Translations under genes and position numbers: made by a program
Notes under the pieces: model-generated
Told to the model about the DNA's origin: nothing
The model's input: only the letters and a program-made list of their open reading frames with translations
The model's database searches: none
Part shown: one piece after another, positions 14,535-18,412 of the stretch
How the letters are laid out: each line of letters begins with the position of its first letter
Position numbering within the stretch: the first letter of the stretch is position 1
From: Thiohalorhabdus denitrificans
GTDB lineage: Bacteria; Pseudomonadota; Gammaproteobacteria; Thiohalorhabdales; Thiohalorhabdaceae
Assembly: GCF_001399755.1 (NCBI RefSeq)
Contig: NZ_LJCP01000006.1
Coordinates: forward strand, 1-64,000
Length of the DNA: 64,000 nt
Direction of reading: 5' to 3'

Positions 14535-15485
14535 ATGATCGACATCAGCATCGGCCTGATCGCCGCCCTCGTCATCGGCGTCGGCCTCATCGCCTTCATC
14601 GCCAAGGGCCTTTTCATCGTCCAGCAGAGCGAGGCGGTGGTGGTGGAACGCCTGGGCAGCTTCAGCCGCACCCTCGGCCCGGGCATCAACTTCCTGATCC
14701 CGGTGCTGGAGCGGGCCCGGCCCATCAAGATCCGCCGCTACGAGAGCACCGGCATCGGCTCCAAGGCCCTCGCCGAGCGGGTGGTGGAGGAGACCAAGAT
14801 CGACACCCGCGAGACGGTGCTCAACTTCCCCGCCCAGCCGGTGGTGACCAACGACAACGTCTCCATCCAGATCGACGGCGCCCTCTACTTCCAGATCCAG
14901 TCGCCCAAGGACGCCGTCTACGAGGTGGAGAACCTGATCCAGGCCGTGGAGGTGCTGGCCAAGACCACCCTGCGCGCCGTGGTGGGCGCCCGCGAGCTGG
15001 ACACGCTGTTCTCCTCCCGCGACGAGATCAACAACGAGCTGCAGAAGGTGATGGACGACGCCGGCAACAAGTGGGGCGTGAAGGTGAACCGCGTGGAGAT
15101 CCAGGACATCACCCTCCCCGAGGAGGTGGAGAACGCTATGCGCCAGGTGATGACCGCCGAGCGCAAGCGCCGGGCCACCGTCACCGAGGCCAACGGCTAC
15201 AAAGAGGCGCAGATCAAGGAGGCCGAGGGCGACAAGGAAGCGGCCATCCAGCGCGCCGAGGGCGAGAAGGGGGCCATCGAGAAGGTGCTCTCCGCCGGCC
15301 AGCAGATGCAGAAGGACATCGACCCGCAGATGGTGATCAGCTACCTCATCGCCCAGCGCTACATGGAGAAGCTCCCGGAGATCGCCAAGGACGGCGAGCG
15401 GGTGCTGGTGCCCTATGAGGCTACCGGGTTACTGGGGAGTCTGGAGTCTATTCAGGGGTTGTTTCCCGGGAACGGGAAATTTTGA
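14535..15485 (+). CDS. SPFH/stomatin-type membrane protein (QmcA-like)
   Basis: The 316-residue product has one N-terminal transmembrane helix (about residues 5-28) and an SPFH/Band 7 domain (VQQSEAVVVERLGSFSRTLGPGINF to about residue 200). A coiled coil rich in Ala/Glu/Lys follows (about 205-260), with a C-terminal tail. It resembles QmcA and prokaryotic stomatins, which oligomerise in the inner membrane. It is paired with the NfeD gene 35 bases upstream. The last about 60 bases are less G+C-rich and lead directly into the A+T-rich insert. Confidence 0.93.
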   Translation: MIDISIGLIAALVIGVGLIAFIAKGLFIVQQSEAVVVERLGSFSRTLGPGINFLIPVLERARPIKIRRYESTGIGSKALAERVVEETKIDTRETVLNFPAQPVVTNDNVSIQIDGALYFQIQSPKDAVYEVENLIQAVEVLAKTTLRAVVGARELDTLFSSRDEINNELQKVMDDAGNKWGVKVNRVEIQDITLPEEVENAMRQVMTAERKRRATVTEANGYKEAQIKEAEGDKEAAIQRAEGEKGAIEKVLSAGQQMQKDIDPQMVISYLIAQRYMEKLPEIAKDGERVLVPYEATGLLGSLESIQGLFPGNGKF

Positions 15486-16413
15486 CGGAATGAAACCTTT
15501 CAAATAAAGAGACATTTTTGGCGTCCGCTTTCTAGATATTCTATCTTTAATAGCTTCTCAAACATAAAGCCAAAAGCCATGCACCTAGATTTTTCTTACA
15601 AATTCATACGAACAGCAAGAACAAGAGAGAGTGAATCTTATGTTATATGGAAATTTGACCCAAGCTACCAAGATAGCGTGCGGGCAGGACATATTGATTT
15701 ACACATAGAAGGTAAAATATACCACGGTAATATAATATTAGAGATAGAATTGGAAGAGGAAGAAGTTGGTATCCTTATCCACCAAATAGACAATACTTGC
15801 GTTGGTTGGGACAGGGATGACTTCATAGTTCAAGTATTTTCGGGAAAAGAAATTGGATACTACTCAGATTTCATAACGGAAGAGGAGCGGGGTGAGGAGT
15901 ATCCCTTACGCAAAGATATTAAACATATCAAAGAAAACATGGACACCTTTTTTGGGAAATTTCAATACACCCGCTCAAAAATTTCAGAGCATGCAGTTGA
16001 ATCATATTTCTCAGAACTAGGGTTTGAGGCAAAACGCGCCGACAAAGACTTAGATGCACTGAAAGTAGACGTAATAGCAGAATCAAAAGATGAAATAATC
16101 TATACCCAAGTAAAATTGGGGCAAATTTCAGAAAAGTCCATGAGGGAGGTAGCACAATCGATTTACAGCCTGCCTCATCCGGATAGTAAGAGGAAATCAG
16201 CCGCTTTTGTTGCTAAGCATTTCCCTTATAAATCAGAATTAATACGCGGCAAACTGGAGGAAAAATTTGGGATAAGGATTTTTTGCATAAGCCTCAATCA
16301 AATAATTATGGCAACCCCAGAATACAAGCAATCTTTATTTTAAACTTATTGACTTTAAAGGCCCATAGAAGCCATAAAATTTAAATAAAATCGAACACTT
16401 AAAAGTAAACACC
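15486..16413. other. A+T-rich foreign-looking insert
   Basis: From just after the SPFH stop codon to the oxyR start, composition switches abruptly from strongly G+C-rich to A+T-rich, including the third positions of the gene within. The insert holds a single complete gene. I found no transposase, integrase or flanking direct repeat, so the route of entry is not visible. The edges coincide almost exactly with the neighbouring coding ends. Confidence 0.85.
15579..16343 (+). CDS. Putative PD-(D/E)XK (Mrr-like) nuclease-fold protein, horizontally acquired
   Basis: The 254-residue product has an unrecognised beta-rich N-terminal half (about residues 1-125). Its C-terminal half looks like a Mrr/restriction-endonuclease-like core: a helix with Glu141 (EHAVESYFSELGFEAKRA), a strand with Asp164 (LKVDVIAE), then IIYTQVKLG with the Q177-x-K179 variant of the (D/E)xK pair. 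This E...D...QxK order fits nucleases of the Mrr branch. Codon use is A+T-rich, unlike every neighbour. No methylase or other defence gene is adjacent and no ribosome-binding site is obvious. Function as an orphan restriction or defence enzyme is inferred. Confidence 0.65.
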   Translation: MHLDFSYKFIRTARTRESESYVIWKFDPSYQDSVRAGHIDLHIEGKIYHGNIILEIELEEEEVGILIHQIDNTCVGWDRDDFIVQVFSGKEIGYYSDFITEEERGEEYPLRKDIKHIKENMDTFFGKFQYTRSKISEHAVESYFSELGFEAKRADKDLDALKVDVIAESKDEIIYTQVKLGQISEKSMREVAQSIYSLPHPDSKRKSAAFVAKHFPYKSELIRGKLEEKFGIRIFCISLNQIIMATPEYKQSLF

Positions 16414-17343
16414 ATGACCCTCTCCGAGCTCAAATACATCATCGCCCTGGCCCGCCACCGCCACTTCGGCCGGGCAGCGGAGGCCGCCTTCGTGGCCCAG
16501 CCCACGCTCTCCGTGGCGGTGAAGAAGCTGGAGGAGGAGCTGGGGGTGGCGCTGTTCGAGCGCGGTACCACGGCAGTGACGCCCACCCCGGTGGGCGAGC
16601 GGGTGGTGGAGCAGGCGCAGCGGGTGCTGGAGGGGGTGGAGGAGATCGGCGCGCTGGCCTCCGCGGCCCGGGATCCGCTGGGCGAGCCGCTGCGCCTGGG
16701 CGCCATCTTCACCGTGGGGCCCTATCTGCTGCCGCACCTGGTGCCCCGCCTCCACGAGGCGGCGCCCGGCATGCCGCTAGTGGTGGAAGAGGGCTACACC
16801 GCCGACCTCACCGAGCGTCTCAAGCGCGGCGAGCTGGACGTCATCCTCATCTCCCTGCCCTTCGAGGTGCCTGGACTGGTCACCCGGCCCCTCTATGACG
16901 AGCCCTTCACGGTGGTGCTGCCCGCCTCCCACCCCTGGAGCGGGCGTGAAAGCGTGGGCCGCGAGGAGCTGGGGACGGAGACGGTGCTGCTGCTCAACGA
17001 CGGCCACTGCTTCCGCGACCAGGTGCTCGCCCACTGCCCGGAATGCCGCCCCGAGAGCGGCCAGCCGGCGGGCATGGCCCGCACCGTGGAGAGCAGCTCC
17101 CTGGAGACCATCCGCTACATGGTGGCCTCCGGCCTGGGGGTGTCGGTGATGCCGTGCACCGCCGTGGGCGGCGAGCTGTTCAACCAGCGCCTGCTGGCGC
17201 AGCGCCGCTTTGCCGCCGAAGCTCCCAGCCGCCGCATCGCCCTGGCCTGGCGGGAGAGCTTTCCCCGGCCCGAGGCCGTGGAGGCGGTAGCGGCGGCGGT
17301 GCGCCAATGCCCGCTCACCTGCGCATCCTTCCCCGATAGCTGA
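16414..17343 (+). CDS. oxyR: Peroxide-sensing LysR-type regulator OxyR
   Basis: The 309-residue product has a LysR helix-turn-helix ([33 protein letters not shown]) and a C-terminal sensor domain. The redox segment [16 protein letters not shown] places cysteines at 199 and 208, the same numbers as the peroxide-sensing pair of E. coli OxyR. It should sense H2O2 by forming that disulfide and activate antioxidant genes. The peroxiredoxin-glutaredoxin gene directly downstream is the obvious target. Its own promoter region is the A+T-rich tail of the foreign insert (TTGACT at 16349). Confidence 0.95.
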
Positions 17344-17372
17344 ATCCTATCTCCTTCATCGCGCTAATTCAT
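17336..17372 (+). promoter_or_regulatory. Probable OxyR binding site
   Basis: ATAG-N7-CTAT-N7-ATCG-N7-TCAT follows the OxyR pattern of four tetranucleotides at 11-base steps. The first two are exact and the last two partial. The site overlaps the oxyR stop codon and lies about 115-150 bases before the peroxiredoxin-glutaredoxin start. Confidence 0.55.
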
Positions 17373-17485
17373 TTAACCTATTTCTTGCCGCCGCCTATTC
17401 TTTCCCTCGTAGCCGGGCGATGGCCGGAACGGCTTCACGGACCCTGCGATCGAAACTTAATCAGCCCATGAACGAGGGATGGATC

Positions 17486-18229
17486 ATGACCGACAAGCGC
17501 GAAGGACAGCGAGTACCCGAGGTCACCTTCAGGACCCGGCAGAACAATGAATGGGCGGAGGTCTCCTCCAAGGACGTCTTCGCCGGCAAGACGGCGGTGG
17601 TGTTCGCCCTGCCGGGGGCGTTCACGCCCACCTGCTCGGCCTCCCACGTGCCGCGCTTTAACGAGCTGGCCCCGGTGTTCCGGGAGAACAGCGTGGACGA
17701 CATCGTCTGCATCTCGGTGAACGACGCCTTCGTCATGAACGCTTGGCAGGCAGACCAGGGCGCCTGGGACATCACCTTCCTGCCCGACGGCAACGGCGAG
17801 TTCACCGAGGGCATGGGCATGCTGGTGGACAAGGGCGATCTCGGCTTCGGCAAGCGCTCCTGGCGCTACGCCATGGTGGTCCGTGACGGGGTGGTCGAGA
17901 AGATGTTCGTGGAACCGGACGTGCCCGGGGACCCCTACGAGGTCTCCGACGCTGACACGGTGCTCGGCTACCTGAACCCGGAGGCGAAGCAGCCCGAGAA
18001 GGTGAGCCTGTTCACCAAGCCCGGCTGCCCCTACTGCGCCCGGGCCAAGAAGGCCCTGGAGGACCACGGGGTGGCCTACGAGGAGCTCGAGGTGGACCAG
18101 GGGGTTTCCATGGCCACGGTGCGCGCCGTCAGCGGCGTGGATACGGTGCCGCAGGCCTTCGTCAACGGCGAGCGCATCGGCGGCTCGGAAGCCATTGCCG
18201 CCTGGGCGGAGAAGCGCCGGGCCGCCTGA
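17486..18229 (+). CDS. Hybrid peroxiredoxin-glutaredoxin (Prx5-Grx)
   Basis: The 247-residue fusion has a peroxiredoxin-5 domain (about residues 1-165) with peroxidatic PGAFTPTC (Cys50). A C-terminal glutaredoxin domain carries CPYC (181-184) and [19 protein letters not shown]. Such hybrids reduce peroxides with glutathione, the glutaredoxin part recycling the peroxiredoxin thiol. It is immediately downstream of oxyR with a putative OxyR site between them. The ATG at 17486 is preferred for its GAGGGA site and because the Prx domain begins there; an in-frame ATG at 17468 is possible. Confidence 0.95.
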
Positions 18230-18412
18230 GCATCAGCCTTTCCGGATCGGCCACGCACTCTGGTCCGAAATGGAAGGCTTGTGCCGGGGAGGGAAAAGCC
18301 CGATGCCGTTCCTCGGGTACGGGGGTTCAGGCTAGAGTGAAAGTGCCTGGGTATTTCGCCCGGTTTTCCACGGTTCCGCCCGGGATCCCGGCCCCATTCC
18401 GGGAGGCCTGCA

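Follow-up and report, generated by a model that had tools for sequence, protein, structure and literature searches.

An A+T-rich insert beside oxyR in Thiohalorhabdus denitrificans encodes a likely Mrr-type nuclease, probably a lone DNA-defence enzyme

The window, by which we mean the whole 64-kb stretch of Thiohalorhabdus denitrificans DNA that was analyzed, carries an A+T-rich foreign segment (15486–16413) between a stomatin/prohibitin-family gene (14535–15485, forward strand) and the gene of an OxyR-like LysR regulator (16414–17343, forward strand), which is followed by a peroxiredoxin-glutaredoxin fusion gene (17486–18229). The insert is real and is delimited both by a drop in G+C content and by the ends of sister-species conservation. 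Its G+C content is 36.7%, whereas stretches of equal length from the rest of the window have a mean of 69.8% (sd 3.1%, minimum 59.8%), which places the segment at z = -10.7; no second such A+T-rich island lies within the window. The best two-breakpoint fit to G+C content sets the edges at 15477 and 16442, in agreement with the sharp change in composition at both ends that a sequence-only reading of this DNA had described. Likewise, third codon positions contain 36% G+C in the insert gene versus 93–96% in the stomatin, oxyR and peroxiredoxin neighbours.

As also proposed in that reading, the insert holds one gene only, a single intact open reading frame on the forward strand (15579–16343) encoding 254 amino acids. 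The start at 15579 agrees with the start of the only relative found, a protein of Priestia megaterium, with which it aligns, and the in-frame stretch upstream of it has no common start codon. The protein falls into an unrecognised N-terminal half (approximately residues 1–124; 15579–15950), a candidate recognition or sensor part, and a C-terminal half that matches the Mrr_cat profile, with a putative PD-(D/E)XK nuclease core at residues 137–196 (15987–16166). A consensus scan for a sigma-70 promoter and a terminator gave no match, where the consensus may not be that of the host. No tRNA gene was found in the window, and the segment showed no convincing flanking or terminal repeats. One 13-nt terminal inverted-repeat pair (at 15498 and 16332, 92%) was attributed to chance, being A+T-rich and accompanied by longer pairs in the same region.

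The assignment of the C-terminal half required profile comparison. Searched as a single sequence, the protein has Mrr_cat (PF04471) as its only Pfam match (residues 137–195, E 0.054), with a score of 14.1 bits that is under the Pfam cut-off of 21 bits. We combined the insert protein and its Priestia relative into a two-protein profile and aligned it by HHalign to 29 Mrr_cat domains from Gammaproteobacteria, obtaining a probability of 88% (score 40.9, P 3.1e-6) over residues 137–196. None of 60 column-shuffled control profiles scored above 18.6, the reversed profile scored 13.4, and profiles of stomatin, OxyR, peroxiredoxin and PAS kinase all remained below 1.5%. Furthermore, each of the two relatives alone aligns to the Mrr_cat motif in the same register, and their C-terminal halves score 196 against each other versus 33 for shuffled sequences. 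The Mrr-type nuclease assignment of the sequence-only reading gains statistical support from these comparisons; its active site holds only in part. Asp164 and Gln177-x-Lys179 do align with the Mrr_cat motif; the acidic residue preceding them, however, is not Glu141, which is Leu in the Priestia relative, but Glu137, one helix turn away and aligned with the helix-1 glutamate of Mrr. Glu137, Asp164, Gln177 and Lys179 are all invariant in the relative. Altogether, sequence comparison gives good support to the view that approximately residues 130–254 constitute an Mrr_cat domain, divergent in sequence and belonging to the PD-(D/E)XK superfamily, and that its active site is of the Mrr variant; the insert protein is likely a nuclease.

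From these alignments we infer a PD-(D/E)XK fold for the C-terminal half. AlphaFold models computed without an alignment were too poor to serve as evidence for a fold, with a pLDDT of 34 when the whole protein was modelled and 37 when only the C-terminal half was. The order of helices and strands in these models fits the superfamily, at a confidence that makes the models unusable as such evidence, and a Foldseek search with the C-terminal model returned only noise.

The N-terminal half was claimed to be unrecognised, and it has stayed so: neither relative gave a Pfam match in this half up to E 10. It is nevertheless kept in the Priestia protein. The two N-terminal halves score 68 against each other, compared with 26.8 ± 4.8 for shuffled sequences, and none of 2000 shuffles reached 68. 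That this half is a conserved, unrecognised domain is well supported by this comparison.

The Priestia protein (BMG_RS31875, WP_180896798.1), annotated as a hypothetical protein and encoded on plasmid pBMG9, is the sole relative among 72,556 plasmids. It is 28.5% identical over residues 69–253 (E 4e-15), and its alignment with the insert protein spans the entire length. Sequence conservation between Gammaproteobacteria and Bacillota extends to both halves. Searches of genome contigs and, by protein and motif scans, of viral contigs yielded no relative; the motif matches in viral contigs proved on translation to be unrelated proteins. There was no relative among phages at E 0.01 either, nor in several hundred genomes of the class, phylum and order, which returned only a weak DUF4143 match. 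As the sole known relative is only 28% identical, these negative results are bounded by the sensitivity of the searches. PADLOC models matched neither the insert protein nor the Priestia relative, and a single-sequence search of NCBIfam and sequence searches of the PDB gave no match. The single sequence also matched a PHROG restriction endonuclease (E 0.015).

To place the insert in its genomic context, the window was compared with two congeners, one of them incomplete (82%), the better one (G001) being used for the locus itself. The insert gene was found in neither congener. On the left, conservation with the sister species, where the stomatin copy is 95% identical, stops at 15478; on the right it restarts at 16408, with 78% identity in OxyR, and the DNA immediately upstream of oxyR belongs to the A+T-rich segment. 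In the sister species, the stomatin gene and the oxyR-peroxiredoxin pair lie on different contigs. There the stomatin locus runs straight into genes that start at 21.4 kb and 18.4 kb in the window, and oxyR comes after a TonB-receptor-like gene. Because conservation stops and restarts at these positions and the flanks are split in the sister species, the insert coincides exactly with a synteny breakpoint, which it shares with an oxyR-peroxiredoxin pair placed differently in the two genomes. In the window, this oxyR-peroxiredoxin/glutaredoxin pair is located between stomatin and a PAS kinase (15486–18412), in the sister species elsewhere (L029 7460–8840; L030 8730–10680). The description of the locus as lying between housekeeping genes is accurate as to the stomatin-family and oxyR flanks, yet it hides their non-adjacency in the sister species. 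For the same reason a true empty site could not be demonstrated. At the insert edge (15470–15485), the stomatin-family protein ends in ...LFPGNGKF in the window and in ...LFPGAGIPGSNGGKTAG in the sister copy. The sequences suggest that the insertion replaced the last stomatin codons. An ordinary Mrr_cat protein is encoded elsewhere (G001:C15:48341–48670, E 4e-11) in the sister species, which does not have the insert gene; the genome of the window itself has no Mrr_cat protein above threshold.

No defence gene adjoins the insert gene in the window. On pBMG9, the CHAT protein encoded two genes upstream of the relative matches the PADLOC model BovA (E 2.9e-64), which we take to be the Borvo protein. 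A 51-codon open reading frame separates this CHAT gene from the nuclease relative. The gene (L002 3087–5369) is annotated merely as a CHAT domain-containing protein, and a damage-repair protein gene also lies near the relative. With one relative known, the neighbourhood evidence amounts to a single case. The CHAT protease is a domain of the Borvo defence system, and CHAT proteins are found in abortive defence (PMC10952713).

We favour the view, which we hold to be fairly probable, that the insert gene was acquired horizontally and encodes a solitary nuclease of the Mrr_cat type that serves in defence as a restriction-type enzyme. The N-terminal half would recognise invading DNA by some feature, which might be a modified base as it is for Mrr and MspJI, and the C-terminal half would cut the recognised DNA with Mg2+. 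There is no methyltransferase gene in the insert, hence the host would presumably be spared through lack of the recognised feature. The gene probably came recently from a low-G+C donor; its foreign composition, its absence from both congeners and its location at a breakpoint all support a recent transfer. Recent acquisition, combined with the Borvo-like plasmid neighbour, speaks for a defence nuclease that acts alone, of the restriction type or another. A defence role is plausible. That it takes the form of type IV restriction or of an anti-phage effector we infer from the biology of the family, the horizontal acquisition and the Borvo-like gene in a single plasmid neighbourhood. The recognition domains that accompany Mrr-cat in Mrr and MspJI are not homologous to each other, and both enzymes act on modified DNA; similarity to Mrr-cat alone does not imply modification dependence, with LlaGI as a counter-example (PMC3874153).

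The same data were weighed against other roles. An N-terminal half that is not a known DNA-reading domain might instead sense infection or a partner, in which case the protein would be an abortive-type effector whose nuclease, unlike type IV restriction, degrades the DNA or RNA of host and phage alike. The Borvo-like CHAT gene near the Priestia relative points the same way; yet the window has no partner gene, and the intervening small reading frame and the single instance of the association on the plasmid count against such a pairing, which makes this alternative unlikely. A free-standing intergenic gene of foreign composition that both congeners lack could also be a self-spreading or selfish nuclease gene, either homing-type or the relic of an addictive restriction enzyme, without benefit to the host. 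We give this little credence, as the gene sits at a synteny breakpoint instead of an otherwise intact site, is accompanied by no intron, intein or methyltransferase, and belongs to a family that is extremely sparse and not recurrent at one site. The PD-(D/E)XK superfamily includes many repair nucleases, and this, with the damage-repair protein gene near the plasmid relative, would agree with a DNA-repair or recombination nuclease outside defence. Such a role is equally improbable, given that the closest domain, and the sole Pfam family matched, is Mrr_cat, and that its rarity and horizontal acquisition set the insert gene apart from housekeeping repair genes.

In summary, the insert protein is probably a lone DNA-defence enzyme from a very sparsely distributed family. 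In lone Mrr-cat nucleases specificity comes from the attached domain, and a conserved attached domain without a family-model match would represent a novel module for recognition or sensing. We therefore put forward, tentatively and with less confidence than the restriction-type role, a family of anti-phage nucleases, so far undescribed and very sparse, in which one gene combines a new recognition domain with a divergent Mrr_cat nuclease and which may move between Bacillota plasmids and Gammaproteobacterial chromosomes. If the insert protein restricts nothing, the locus would be an ordinary instance of a rearrangement point that gained a foreign gene.

Among known systems, the type IV enzyme Mrr of E. 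coli shares with the insert protein the C-terminal Mrr_cat nuclease domain (PF04471) with Glu...Asp...Gln-x-Lys (profile P 3e-6) and the order of parts, an N-terminal recognition half, here a candidate one, preceding the nuclease. It differs by the Mrr_N winged helix, for which the N-terminal half showed no match in a test of sequence only, and members of the Mrr_cat family differ in that the insert protein alone scores below their Pfam cut-off. The ATPase-associated nuclease-like domain DUF4143 (PF13635) has a weakly similar motif, but the two-protein profile matched it at just 6.6% by HHalign (P 0.006), and the insert protein has no ATPase. MspJI-type enzymes likewise place a C-terminal Mrr-cat behind another recognition domain (PMC3874153), in their case an SRA-like domain that Pfam did not detect in the N-terminal half here. 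The closest counterpart is WP_180896798.1 of pBMG9, which, despite only 28% identity and a plasmid location near a Borvo-like CHAT gene, matches the insert protein over its full length, with the same two-part architecture and the same catalytic residues.
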